33,369 bases of DNA from NCBI GenBank assembly GCA_031271905.1, contig JAISUT010000050.1, forward strand, positions 1 through 33,369, read 5' to 3'. This DNA comes from Acidobacteriota bacterium. GTDB taxonomy: Bacteria; Acidobacteriota; UBA6911. The notes under the pieces were generated by a model. It saw only the letters and a list, made by a program, of their open reading frames with translations, was not told the DNA's origin and ran no database searches. Shown piece after piece: positions 105 to 8,709 of this stretch; the stretch's first letter is position 1, and each line of letters begins with the position of its first letter. The position numbers and the translations under genes are program-made.

Positions 105-3100
105 ATGGGGTCGATTTCCCCGTTGGATGATAATCTGACCATCGGAAACTACGAGATCATCGAAAAATTGGGTGGCAGGAACTCGGGTTCCGTCTATCGC
201 GGTCTCGACCCGGAGTTCGGACGGGCGGTCGTCATCCGGGTGTTGCGCGAGAACATCGCCTGGACTCCGGGGTTGGAAGAACGGTTCCGTCGGGACTACG
301 CCCCCAGCGCAGACCTCAAGCATCCCAACATCGCCGCCGTCTACGAAATAGGCAAGGAGGGGGCGTTCCCCTACGTCGCGATGGAGTCGCTCGGCCCCAA
401 GAACATCAAAAGGCTGGTCGATCAACAGGTCGAACTGACGGTCGAGGACAAGCTGTCGATGCTGATCCAGGCGGCGACAGGCATAGGGCACGCCCACCAA
501 AACGGCGTCCTGCACCTGAACCTCTCCCCGAGCAAGATCCACGTCACGCCCGACGGTACCACGAAGGTGCGAGACTTCAACCTCGCAAACCTGCTGGCGC
601 AATATCCGCCGCCGGCAGCGCCCGGAGAGCCCTCCGCCTACGCCGCCCCCGAAACCGCAGAAGGCAAGATGGGCGGGGTGCAGGCGGACATCTACTCGCT
701 GGGGGCGGTGTTCTACGAATGCCTCACCTTGCGCCGACCTTCGTGGAAAGCCTCCGGGGAAGTGCACTTCCCCGAATTCGAACAGGTCGCGGAGATACCG
801 CCCGGACTGTGGATCATCTTAAAGACCTGCCTGGAGCACAACCCGGACGACCGTTACCGCAACATGGGCGATCTGGTCGCCGCCGCCCAAGAACTGATCG
901 ACAGCCTTGCCGAGGACAAACGGCTGATGCAGACGGAGCTTTACTCCGCCATCGAACCGTTGCGTCGGTTCGCCGCCCGGCCGGATACGCCCCCCGAATC
1001 GTCCCTCGGGGCGCACAAGCTCCTTCACGAAATCCAGTTGTTGGCCAGCGGGGAGTCTGCGGCGCACTACGCCCTTTTGGAGCGGTTGCTGAACACGCTG
1101 CTCGCCCTGTATCCGCAATACGCCCAAGACGCCGCCGCCACGGCGGACGGCGAGCAACCGGCGTCGTTCACGGAGGCGCTGCAACCCGCCCCGCCTTCCG
1201 AGGGGATGCGTTCGGAGGCGTCGGATGCATCCCCGGAAGAAACCGGCGACGCGGCTTCTGGCGCGACAGCATCTGACGCGGCTCCCGCTGGCGAGGCTGG
1301 CGGACAGTCTGCGCCTGAGACCGCGCCAGGACGGGAGGAAGTCCTTCCGGCATCGGGAGAAGCAGACCCCTTCGCAGAACCCGTGATGGAAATAACAGTG
1401 GAAATCGAGGCGCGCCCCGAACCCTCCGGCATGGCGGCGGCGTCCGCCGAAACGCAGGCACAACCCGCATCCGCCCCCGAAACCGGCGCCCGCGCCAATT
1501 TCACCCCGATGCCTGCGGAGTCTGGCTATTCCAACCTCAGCATGCTCATGGACGAGCTCATCCAGTCGCATCCCAAACTCCAAGACATCGACAGCAACGC
1601 GGATTTCGAGATGTACGCACCGCCTTGGGCGGCGGTGCCGACTGCGGCGAACGCCAACCCACCGCTGACGACGGAAGCCGCGCCTGCTCCGGCACCTGTT
1701 CCAACGCCTGCGGCGGCGACTGCACCTCCGGCGGCGATGCCCGCCCCGGCGCCTTTGGCACCTGAGCCAGACGCCCCGGCGGTTGAACCGCAACGGATTC
1801 CGCTGGCATTGACCAGCACGCCTTCGGCACCTGCGCCCGCACCCGATGCGCCCCAGCCTCGACCGGTCGCGGCTGGGCCGGAGGCGCCGGAAGCCGCAGC
1901 ATCCAAAGAGCCACCGTCTCAACTGGCGAAGGCGTCCGTGTCCAGTTTCCAAGACCAGCTCCAACTGGTGACGGAAAAAGAAAAGGCGAAGGAGCAGACC
2001 AACCAGGAATTGTCGTCCTCCTCCTCCGCAGCATTGCCGAACCCGGACAGGAAAAGGTTGCCGAAGACGCCCCTTGCAACGGCGGGAGAACGTGAAGGCG
2101 CGGCGAAAAAGTCCATGTCGTCGTGGAAGACGGGCGTCTTGATCGCGGCGACCATCATCCTCCTGATCGCAGGTATCGGGCTTGTCTTCAAGCTCGACAC
2201 GGAAAAGCCGGAGGAGCTATCCGAAACGACCGAAGCGCCCAAGGAAATCGAGTTCGCCACACCGCCGCTCACGCCGCTGGAAACCACCCTCGGCACCGTG
2301 AACCACGTCCAAGAAGAGGAAGTGGATGAGCCCCCGGAAATCGCCCAGGCGATGCAAAGGCCGTTGGACGATGCGGGGCGCAATCGGTTGAAGAAAGTCC
2401 GTGGCTGGATCGAATCCGGCAACCTCAATGCGGCGAAAGTCGAATTGAACAAGTTGGTCAACCTCTATCCGGGGGCGACGGAGCTGGCCGAGACGCGCAA
2501 GAAGTTGCGGACGGCGGAGAAAAACGCCTTGGCCGCCAAAGCGGAGGAGGAGAAGCGCCAGTCGCAGCTAAACCAGCGCGAAGGGGAGTTCAACAAACGG
2601 GCGAGCGCGTACTTCACGCAAGGTCAATACGCCCAGGCCGCCCAAGAGCTGGCGAAATGGAGGAGCGAAAACCCCAACAGCGCGCTGGCGAGGGACTTGT
2701 CCACCAAGGTCGAGCTGATCCAGACGAACTTGCGGGCATACGATACGTTCATATCGCGGCGACTCTACCAGGACGCCGACGCCGCCCTGCAAATCGTGGA
2801 ACAGTACAATCCCCACGATCCGAAATTGGAAACTTTGCGACGGCAGTTGGAAGTCCGGCGGTCGAACGCCCAGGCGCGGTTGACGATCGAACGGTTGGGT
2901 GCCAAGGGCGACCTGCTGATGGACGGCAAGACCATCGGATCGAACGGGGAGGTCTCGAACCTGTCCATCGGGATCGGACCGCACACGATCTCCATCGAAA
3001 GCAACGGGAAGGTGGTGGCGTCTCAAACCATCAACTTCGCCGACACCCAGCAAGAGGCGATGGTGTACGACGTGGCGCAACGCATCTTGCGCAAGAAGAA

Positions 3101-3428
3101 CGAGGGCGACCGCGAACCGATCAACCGACGGCGCCAGTTGGAGCAGGGGATACCCTTCGATGTGGAGCACCCGCACGGGACGTGGCGCGGCAACTGCAAA
3201 GGGACGTTGGTGATAACCGACACCACCATCACGTTCTCCTCGCTTAATGGCGAGCACTCCTTCTCCACGCCGACGGGGCAGACGAAGATCGGAGCGATCA
3301 ACAACAAAGACAAGAGCCTGGAGCTCCTTGACAGCGACAACAAGAAGATCGAACCCCTCAAGTTCAAGAACGCTAACGACCTCCAGAATTTCCGCAAGAC
3401 GTTGGAGGAAGTGGCTGCGAGAAGGTGA
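105..3428 (+). CDS. Membrane-anchored Ser/Thr kinase-like protein (probable pseudokinase) with PEGA-like and PH-like C-terminal domains
   Basis: The 1107-residue protein starts at ATG 105 behind a strong ribosome site (AGGAAGGAG). Residues about 15-270 have the Hanks-type kinase fold, but key residues are changed. The glycine loop reads LGGRNSGSV (second Gly is Arg25), the VAIK lysine is Arg45, the helix-C glutamate position is Asp64, HRDLKPSN reads HLNLSPSK (catalytic Asp is Asn139), and DFG reads DFN (157-159). The APE motif (181-183) and the DIYSLG segment are kept. An Ala/Pro-rich linker (about 340-660) leads to one membrane helix (about 676-697). Beyond it lie a coiled-coil/TPR-like stretch (about 745-900), a PEGA-like domain (about 925-995) and a PH-like domain (about 1010-1107). 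I infer a signalling or scaffold protein that binds a partner rather than an active kinase. It stands alone, and no phosphatase or substrate gene is adjacent. Confidence 0.85.
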   Translation: MGSISPLDDNLTIGNYEIIEKLGGRNSGSVYRGLDPEFGRAVVIRVLRENIAWTPGLEERFRRDYAPSADLKHPNIAAVYEIGKEGAFPYVAMESLGPKNIKRLVDQQVELTVEDKLSMLIQAATGIGHAHQNGVLHLNLSPSKIHVTPDGTTKVRDFNLANLLAQYPPPAAPGEPSAYAAPETAEGKMGGVQADIYSLGAVFYECLTLRRPSWKASGEVHFPEFEQVAEIPPGLWIILKTCLEHNPDDRYRNMGDLVAAAQELIDSLAEDKRLMQTELYSAIEPLRRFAARPDTPPESSLGAHKLLHEIQLLASGESAAHYALLERLLNTLLALYPQYAQDAAATADGEQPASFTEALQPAPPSEGMRSEASDASPEETGDAASGATASDAAPAGEAGGQSAPETAPGREEVLPASGEADPFAEPVMEITVEIEARPEPSGMAAASAETQAQPASAPETGARANFTPMPAESGYSNLSMLMDELIQSHPKLQDIDSNADFEMYAPPWAAVPTAANANPPLTTEAAPAPAPVPTPAAATAPPAAMPAPAPLAPEPDAPAVEPQRIPLALTSTPSAPAPAPDAPQPRPVAAGPEAPEAAASKEPPSQLAKASVSSFQDQLQLVTEKEKAKEQTNQELSSSSSAALPNPDRKRLPKTPLATAGEREGAAKKSMSSWKTGVLIAATIILLIAGIGLVFKLDTEKPEELSETTEAPKEIEFATPPLTPLETTLGTVNHVQEEEVDEPPEIAQAMQRPLDDAGRNRLKKVRGWIESGNLNAAKVELNKLVNLYPGATELAETRKKLRTAEKNALAAKAEEEKRQSQLNQREGEFNKRASAYFTQGQYAQAAQELAKWRSENPNSALARDLSTKVELIQTNLRAYDTFISRRLYQDADAALQIVEQYNPHDPKLETLRRQLEVRRSNAQARLTIERLGAKGDLLMDGKTIGSNGEVSNLSIGIGPHTISIESNGKVVASQTINFADTQQEAMVYDVAQRILRKKNEGDREPINRRRQLEQGIPFDVEHPHGTWRGNCKGTLVITDTTITFSSLNGEHSFSTPTGQTKIGAINNKDKSLELLDSDNKKIEPLKFKNANDLQNFRKTLEEVAARR

Positions 3429-3571: not shown

Positions 3572-4312
3572 TCATTCCACCGAAGGTTGCGCCGATTCCG
3601 GTTTCGGCGGCTCCCGGTAGAAGAGGATGCGGGAGCAACTGTCGCAAAACAGGATCGCCTCGGTGCGGATCAGGTCTGCGTACATCTGGGGTCGGATGCG
3701 GACGTGACAGGCGGAGCACAGCTCGTCCTTGGCCTCGGCGAGCGCCACCCCCTTGCGTCCCCCGGCGATTCGCCGGTACTGGTTCATCAACTCGCGGCTG
3801 ATCTGCGAGGCGACGCCCGCCTGCTCCTCTTGCAACTGCTCCAACTCGCTTTCTAAGGCTGGGGCGGCGGCGGTGACCTTGTCAATGTCCGACTGGAGCG
3901 CGGCGCATTCCTCGCGCATCGCCACTTCCGCCAGCTTCAACTCCTTATCGCCGGTCTCCAACGCCTCCATCACCTCCAAAATCTTGTCCTCCTCGCCCCG
4001 GATCTGGTTTTCGGCGCCTTTGATCTCGTTGAGCATGGCGGAATATTCCTTGTTGGTCTTGACCGTCATGAGCTGCTCTTTGAGGCGCGCCAAGCGCGTG
4101 CGCGCGAGTTCCACCTCCCCTTCGAGCGTCCGACGGCGCTCGGCGAGTTTCTTCGCCGCCTCGTCCTTCGCCTCATACGAAGACTGGGCGCGTTGCCGCT
4201 TGGCTTCCAGCTCACCGGTTTTCAATGGGATTTCGGAGATTTGCTTGTGGAGTTCGGCTATTTTCAGGTCGATGTCCTGCAGGGCTATTAACTTCTGGAG
4301 GTCGGGATTCAC
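3572..4312 (-). CDS. C4-type zinc-ribbon, coiled-coil protein (COG1579-like)
   Basis: This 246-residue protein begins MNPDLQKLIALQDIDLKI, followed by a long charged coiled coil (about residues 10-170). A C-terminal zinc ribbon has two CxxC pairs (CSAC and CDSC) about 20 residues apart. That matches the COG1579 family of putative nucleic-acid-associated zinc-ribbon proteins, whose biochemical role is not settled. I chose the GTG at 4312 because the open frame upstream is Arg/Pro-rich and unlike the family, and because the promoter at 4461-4490 would start transcription below the next upstream start codon (4462). The likely ribosome site, AAAGGGG, lies inside a small hairpin (CCCCT at 4320-4324 with AGGGG at 4331-4335). 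A 39-codon reading frame upstream ends in a GTGA overlap with this start. Confidence 0.85.
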   Translation of the reverse strand: MNPDLQKLIALQDIDLKIAELHKQISEIPLKTGELEAKRQRAQSSYEAKDEAAKKLAERRRTLEGEVELARTRLARLKEQLMTVKTNKEYSAMLNEIKGAENQIRGEEDKILEVMEALETGDKELKLAEVAMREECAALQSDIDKVTAAAPALESELEQLQEEQAGVASQISRELMNQYRRIAGGRKGVALAEAKDELCSACHVRIRPQMYADLIRTEAILFCDSCSRILFYREPPKPESAQPSVE

Positions 4313-5708: not shown

Positions 5709-7595
<1,887 letters not shown>

Positions 7596-7596
7596 G

Positions 7597-8709
7597 CTAC
7601 GCCTCCTTCCCTGTTGTCGCCTCTTCGGCGCCGCCCGCGCCTTCGAGGGAGTTGATGAGTTTCGCGAGCTGGCTCTGCGACGGGTCGCGGTAATACTGCG
7701 AGCCGATCTGCACCACGGGGGCCAAGGCGCAACAGCCGAGGCAGTGGACGGTCTCAAGCGTGAAGCGCTGCTTGGCGTCGGTCTCGCCGGGCTGGATGCC
7801 CAATGCCGCGGAGACGCGGGTCAGCGTCTCGGTGGCGCCGCGCACATGGCAGGCCGTGCCGGTGCAGACCTGGATGGTGTGCCGTCCGCGCGGCTCGGTG
7901 CTGAACGCCTCGTAGAAGTTGGCGATGACGAGGATGTCCTTCAATGGGATGTTCAACCGCCCGCTTATCCAGTTCAGGATGTGGCGCGGCAGCCAGCGGA
8001 ACTTCTCCTGCACGTCGAGCAGGATCTGGATGAGGGCGTTCTTCTGGAAGTCGTAGTTCCACATGATCGCGTCCGCGTCCAGCAGGTCGTCGTGTATCTC
8101 CGCGATGGCCTCCTCCCTGGTCTTGGCTTCGCCGCGGCTGGCGGCGTTGGACTTCGCCACGTTCTCCAGGCGAGCCAGATCGTCGAGGAACTGCCGTTTC
8201 TCAAGGCCGATGGAGTAAGCCTCGCCCAGCACGTCGAGCCCTTCGAGCAACAGGTCGTACTTGTCGGCCTTCTCCTCCTTTGTCTCCGCCTCCCGCTGCA
8301 TCTCGCTGATGCCCACGGCTTGGCGCACCGTCTCCAGCAGCTTCTCGGGGCTGACGGGCTTGGACAGGAAGTCGAAGACCCCCATTTTCATCGCCTCTAC
8401 GGCGGCGTCCACGGTTGCGTCGGCGGTCGCCACGACAGGCACGATGTCGGAGTTGACATCCACCAATTCGTCCAGCAGGTCGAACCCCGCGATGTCGGAC
8501 GGGTCGGCGGCCTTCCAGTCGAGGAGCACCACGCCGGGCGCTTCGGCCTTGGCTGCCTCCAGCCCCTGTTTGCCGCTCGGGGAGACGATGATCTTATAGC
8601 CTTCGCCTTCGAGCGCCTGGCGACAGGTCTTTACAAAAGATTTGTCCGCGTCGATGACCAGGACGACTGCCCGGGCATCGGACGGAGGCGCGGTTTCATT
8701 TACATCCAT
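7597..8709 (-). CDS. Receiver domain fused to NuoE/HydC-like [2Fe-2S] subunit
   Basis: A 370-residue fusion. Residues about 14-133 form a response-regulator receiver domain: Asp20/Asp22 in VIDADKS, predicted phosphoacceptor Asp64 in VVLLDWK, Thr95 in VVATADA and Lys117 in FLSKP. In the acidic pocket the usual adjacent DD is D-A-D. A helical linker (about 134-225) leads to a NuoE domain (about 226-355) with both cysteine pairs of the thioredoxin-like [2Fe-2S] fold, CTGTAC and CLGCC. ATG 8709 follows AGAGG. It is the first gene of the operon with the NuoF-like and ferredoxin-like subunits. I infer that phosphorylation or partner binding at the receiver adjusts electron flow through the NADH module. 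No histidine kinase is encoded nearby. Confidence 0.92.
   Translation of the reverse strand: MDVNETAPPSDARAVVLVIDADKSFVKTCRQALEGEGYKIIVSPSGKQGLEAAKAEAPGVVLLDWKAADPSDIAGFDLLDELVDVNSDIVPVVATADATVDAAVEAMKMGVFDFLSKPVSPEKLLETVRQAVGISEMQREAETKEEKADKYDLLLEGLDVLGEAYSIGLEKRQFLDDLARLENVAKSNAASRGEAKTREEAIAEIHDDLLDADAIMWNYDFQKNALIQILLDVQEKFRWLPRHILNWISGRLNIPLKDILVIANFYEAFSTEPRGRHTIQVCTGTACHVRGATETLTRVSAALGIQPGETDAKQRFTLETVHCLGCCALAPVVQIGSQYYRDPSQSQLAKLINSLEGAGGAEEATTGKEA

Follow-up and report, generated by a model that had tools for sequence, protein, structure and literature searches.

A candidate receptor-like pseudokinase family with a TPR, PEGA-like and PH-like tail in Acidobacteriota

The locus and the domain layout of its product

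We analyzed a 33,369-nucleotide stretch of DNA from an Acidobacteriota bacterium (the window), which is all of contig C34 (GenBank accession no. JAISUT010000050.1) of a 3.40-Mb assembly (GCA_031271905.1) that is 99.8% complete. An uninterrupted open reading frame with coding-like codon use begins with ATG 105 bases from the contig end and closes with a TGA stop codon. The N terminus of its product (P0001), MGSISP, matches those of its relatives (MGTASP or MGAQSP). The features of the gene are collected in Table 1.

Table 1. Features of the P0001 gene and protein, in window coordinates
Feature	Position	Strand	Basis or remark
Whole gene, receptor-like pseudokinase	105..3428	+	1107 aa; ORF, codon use, N terminus in relatives
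Pseudokinase domain (residues 16-251), Hanks/PknB type	150..857	+	PF00069 (also own-genome search, same span); PDB StkP/PknB
Arg45 replacing beta3 (VAIK) Lys	237..239	+	Alignment; Arg in 12/12 family pseudokinases
Degenerate catalytic loop HLNLSPSKI (Asn139, Ser141, Lys144)	513..539	+	Alignment
DFN replacing DFG	573..581	+	Alignment; Asp kept in 12/12, Gly replaced by Ala/Asn within the window's genus
Conserved helical extension (residues 264-340) after the kinase domain	894..1124	+	A1 alignment
Long Ala/Pro/Glu-rich linker, low complexity	1125..2132	+	Sequence and length poorly conserved; dN/dS highest or near-highest in relatives
Single TM helix (residues 677-695)	2133..2189	+	Hydropathy
TPR-like helical repeats (about residues 759-910), predicted extracytoplasmic	2379..2834	+	Weak TPR matches
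PEGA-like beta domain (about residues 924-990)	2874..3074	+	PF08308 in one tail-alignment member; motif and strand pattern
PH-like C-terminal module (about residues 1010-1107)	3132..3425	+	PF17292, weak model, phylum copies
HxH...C.G...H signature (H1022, H1024, C1031, G1033, H1051), candidate metal site	3168..3257	+	62 aligned copies

The N-terminal domain of P0001 belongs to the Hanks-type kinase fold. It matches the Pfam Pkinase profile PF00069 across both lobes (E = 5.2e-24; 85.5 bits against a cut-off of 31.7; profile positions 1 to 252 of 263), and the PDB kinases StkP, PknA and PknB can be aligned to it over most of the domain. These two lines of evidence make the kinase alignment secure. 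The claim in the original prediction that the fold is kept rests on the same homology; AlphaFold models from the single sequence were of too low confidence to inform it (pLDDT 34 for the kinase part and 54 for the tail), and a fold search of the PDB gave no match under an E value of 0.001. The helical extension that follows the kinase domain has nine invariant residues in the A1 alignment (E270, M275, E278, L279, L286, L306, L325, L328 and L332).

P0001 had been predicted to be a membrane protein with a PEGA-like and PH-like tail. Hydropathy agreed with the first part, giving one TM helix in P0001 and likewise in every relative. The order of the tail in the family is TM-TPR-PEGA-PH, and profile support for its last two domains is weak to moderate. 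The best PEGA match (PF08308; E = 0.042, below the profile cut-off) came from 1 of 11 tail sequences, which is why we call the domain PEGA-like only, and the PH domain profile PF17292 (POB3_N) was matched by 4 of the 20 members of the PH-like module alignment (best E value, 3.6e-5), which is modest support. A low-confidence model of the PH-like module has strands followed by a C-terminal helix, with PH-type folds among its nonsignificant Foldseek matches. The charge bias flanking the TM helix is uneven and is reversed in one relative. The orientation that we infer, with the kinase domain in the cytoplasm and the tail in the periplasm, therefore derives chiefly from the cytoplasmic location of the kinase domain.

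Catalytic residues in P0001 and its family

At the aligned catalytic sites, P0001 has R45 in place of the VAIK Lys, HLN (N139) in place of HRD, S141 in place of the catalytic-loop Lys and K144 in place of the metal-binding Asn, so that all four substitutions named in the original prediction were confirmed. Loss of the VAIK Lys, the HRD Asp or the DFG Asp marks a pseudokinase, and P0001 lacks both the Lys and the HRD Asp. The glycine loop (GGRNSG) and the DFG glycine (DFN, about 27 residues from APE) are altered as well, as had been noticed earlier. The glycine-loop change, however, is largely particular to P0001, as its relatives largely keep GEGxxG. Judged by these residues, the kinase domain appears to have lost the capacity for phosphotransfer.

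The same architecture was found by whole-genome searches in the window's genus and in two other genera of the same taxonomic family (a direct scan of genome contigs gave distant kinases only). A profile of the tail was present in 11 of the 15 genomes of this taxonomic family, including 9/9 of those of good quality; no other genome was positive among 38 of the class at an E value of 1e-15. The 11 genomes hold 12 tail-matched pseudokinases. All 12 have Arg for the beta3 Lys, have lost the catalytic-loop Lys and keep the DFG Asp. The HRD Asp is lost in 10 (Asn in 8, Gly in 1 and Ser in 1) and retained in those of genomes G008 and G003; the metal-binding site has Lys in 8, Asn in 2 and Ser in 2, and the alpha-C Glu is kept in 8/12. 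An alignment of orthologues thus showed the core substitutions to be common to the family. The changes had been described as a coordinated set; of these, R45 and the loss of the catalytic-loop Lys are family-wide, whereas two relatives keep the HRD Asp.

Some of these residues bear on what the domain may still do. Nucleotide binding is possible, because every member has the DFG Asp and most have the alpha-C Glu. Residual or altered catalysis may also persist, since two members keep the HRD Asp and the DFG Asp and mostly the alpha-C Glu are retained. P0001 could then still be an enzyme with altered chemistry, in which Arg45 would stand in for the beta3 Lys and Asp157 would hold a metal, making it a weak kinase or another transferase, as with SelO and SidJ. 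In EphB6 and KSR1, a beta3 Arg does not preclude ATP binding (PMC12599244), and the glycine loop of the relatives fits this explanation too. We nevertheless consider it unlikely: the catalytic Asp and the catalytic-loop Lys are both gone in most members, the metal-binding Asn has mostly become Lys, and no conserved replacement base is apparent, whereas the intact relatives retain the Asp, Lys and Asn.

Two more tail-matched proteins are intact kinases (G011:C270 [L047] and G298:C422 [L185]), with AIK, HRDIKPGN and DFG. They share the TM-TPR-PEGA-PH tail and the helical extension with P0001 but are longer (1450-1558 aa) and have an additional repeat-rich region ahead of the TM helix. G011 and G298 each hold an intact and a degenerate version with the same tail, as would be expected if P0001 were a dedicated half of a heterodimer with an active same-tail receptor kinase, like HER3 with HER2. 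In the window's genus, however, only the pseudokinase form was detected, and eight genomes of this genus and G012 have the pseudokinase with no detected intact, tail-matched sister. Pairing is therefore not required in these genomes, unless another kinase (e.g., the canonical one on contig C25 of the window's genome) substitutes, and we give the heterodimer explanation little credence.

Descent, selection and proposed mode of action

We inferred a maximum-likelihood tree of 59 kinase domains, before the G298 kinase was found and with the 11 family pseudokinases then known. The 11 were monophyletic (100/99), and their sister was the intact G011:C270 kinase (100/99). Together they were nested among intact kinases (98/96), three of which have PH-only tails. 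Because the closest intact relatives share the tail and fall outside the pseudokinase clade, catalysis was probably lost once, at the base of the clade, from an active receptor kinase that already carried the tail. Intact orthologues could have meant recent decay in P0001; those found are only outgroup homologues with the same tail. Recent decay or a pseudogene is also rejected, given that the open reading frame is uninterrupted, that other family members share the changes and that dN/dS is low in relatives.

These values were obtained from relatives only, P0001 itself being too diverged for the measure. Among G004, G005 and G006, dN/dS was lowest in the kinase domain (0.20-0.21) and higher in the tail (0.37-0.46) and the linker (0.42-0.47), so that in these three close relatives the dead domain is under the strongest purifying selection of the parts compared. 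The suggestion that the domain is maintained by selection was thus supported in the close relatives. The branch of P0001 in the kinase tree is long (0.73), but the DnaB of its genome has a long branch as well (0.47, versus at most 0.19 in the others; pyruvate kinase was discarded as a poor comparison gene). The long branch is therefore a genome-wide property of the whole lineage, and relaxed selection peculiar to P0001 is unsupported.

The pattern of constraint also bears on whether the tail could be the working part, with the kinase domain a passive membrane-proximal fold or a vestige. Similar TM, PEGA, TPR and PH modules do exist without a kinase, behind a zinc ribbon, and one such protein is encoded in the window's genome (C12, L081). 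Their order (TM-PEGA-TPR-PH) differs from that of the P0001 family, though, and the kinase domain with its helical extension is the most conserved part of the protein, the dN/dS of the kinase domain being about half that of the tail. A passive kinase domain is hence improbable in our view.

Our preferred reading, to which we assign a probability of about 0.6, is that P0001 is a single-pass, receptor-like pseudokinase that acts by binding and not by catalysis, has an envelope-sensing tail and descends from one loss of catalysis. The kinase-fold domain and its conserved helical extension would lie in the cytoplasm, where they would hold or allosterically control a partner, either another kinase or a nonkinase effector. 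This control may be tuned by a nucleotide held by Arg45 and Asp157. The flexible linker and the single TM helix would couple the kinase fold to the extracytoplasmic TPR, PEGA-like and PH-like module, which may sense the state of the envelope or a ligand, possibly with the help of a metal at the HxH...C...H cluster. Bacterial pseudokinases in general mostly lack experimental description. Here, related genomes encode an active form resembling the ancestor, a dead counterpart that shares its tail, and proteins with a similar tail but no kinase domain, a natural series for asking what a kinase fold does once it no longer catalyzes and why dead kinases are accompanied by a particular sensor tail.

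The P0001 family fits none of the seven bacterial pseudokinase families named in a 2025 review (PMC12599244), although it may fall within a published classification of bacterial kinases into 42 families, and among the PMC papers searched that name both pseudokinases and Acidobacteria, no title was about such a family. ActPs2 shares with P0001 the changes of the beta3 Lys to Arg and of the HRD Asp to Asn (R45 and N139). Its DFG is mostly deleted, however, and it has an activation-loop insertion of about 250 aa and a 32-aa insertion before alpha-C (PMC12599244), whereas the P0001 family keeps the DFG Asp throughout and P0001 has a short activation segment and, by contrast, a TPR/PEGA/PH tail.

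EssB/YukC and MviN are noncatalytic transmembrane pseudokinases with scaffolding roles (PMC12599244) and are analogies for P0001, not family. EssB/YukC resembles P0001 in spanning the membrane and in having a degenerate kinase domain in the cytoplasm, and it is a scaffold without catalysis; it has another tail and functions in T7SSb. No type VII secretion genes were seen among the window genes examined, the P0001 gene lying at the contig edge. The MviN domain (ActPs3) is likewise a pseudokinase domain on a membrane protein, used for regulated recruitment: MviN recruits FhaA once phosphorylated by PknB. It differs in having VALT, no HRD, no DFG and no ATP binding, and it sits on a different membrane protein, one needed for peptidoglycan synthesis. 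The PASTA kinases PknB and StkP are of the same kinase lineage by sequence and have the same plan of a cytoplasmic kinase, one TM helix and an external sensor, but they are catalytically intact and carry PASTA repeats. The NCBIfam PASTA kinase model NF033483 gave P0001 158.4 bits, against a cut-off of 450.

Tailed kinases across the phylum and neighboring genes

The PH-like module occurred in 73 of the 297 genomes of the phylum at an E value of 1e-4. It is carried by many unrelated proteins and is not well covered by any Pfam family. In 62 aligned copies, some of them from close relatives, G1033 was conserved in all (62/62), H1022 in 60/62, H1024 in 57/62, C1031 in 56/62 and H1051 in 45/62. 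That these potential ligands are so conserved within an otherwise variable module suggests that the HxH...C...H cluster is a metal site. Some short proteins carry the HxH...C.G module as well, and others have two copies in tandem (e.g., L096, L097, L098, L112 and L122); the module also ends the long kinase-less proteins L089 (G003:C343) and L104 (G008:C242). By eye only, L089 resembles a sensor of the PAS/GGDEF/EAL type with a TM helix after it.

Among the loci read, the kinases with a PH-like module alone were all intact (3/3; L083, L084 and L121), and those with a TM helix, PEGA/TPR and PH comprised 18 degenerate and 2 intact kinases. The 18 are the twelve of the P0001 family plus L092, L094, L105, L113, L115 and L118. 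Five of the latter (L092, L094, L105, L113 and L118) form a separate pseudokinase clade in the tree; in most of this second set, a zinc ribbon lies at the N terminus and the order is TM-PEGA-TPR-PH. A single origin of the tailed pseudokinases as a whole was rejected (AU test, P = 0.0004), with the caveats that several branches are long and that the group was named after the tree had been seen. Most of the other kinases taken from related genomes were intact, but this sample favors high-scoring matches. We tentatively raise the possibility that kinases of this phylum that gained a TM helix and a PEGA/TPR/PH-like tail repeatedly (in at least two lineages) lost catalysis and became ligand- or metal-gated scaffolds, whereas those with PH only stayed intact. 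If this were true, dead kinases would relay signals from the HxH...C.G PH-like module, which would represent a new extracytoplasmic domain that senses a metal or a ligand.

The near-complete genome of the window has four PF00069 matches, of which only that on C25 has canonical residues. A second degenerate kinase, at G000:C33:15691-16488 (L048:5674-8586, P0003), has VALR, HGR and, in the catalytic loop, LT. Its best matches in three genomes of the same genus (L134, L141 and L143; 46-52% identity) are intact, and a recent loss in this lineage is possible. A third degenerate kinase domain, at G000:C43:20423-21040 (L049, P0002), has AGS for HRD and no DFG Asp; L151 (G006) is a degenerate relative of it.

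The genes neighboring the family pseudokinases were compared at 11 loci. Conservation was limited to close relatives, so that no operon partner is indicated. Few window genes recur at the loci of relatives: a convergent zinc-ribbon gene at 3572 has counterparts near the G005 and G006 loci, and elsewhere there were single matches. Farther along the window, a minus-strand gene at 7597-8709 encodes a fusion of a response-regulator receiver and a thioredoxin-like [2Fe-2S] ferredoxin domain (NuoE type), an unusual joining of signaling to redox. It adjoins a gene at 5709-7565 for a NuoF-like flavin/iron-sulfur protein.
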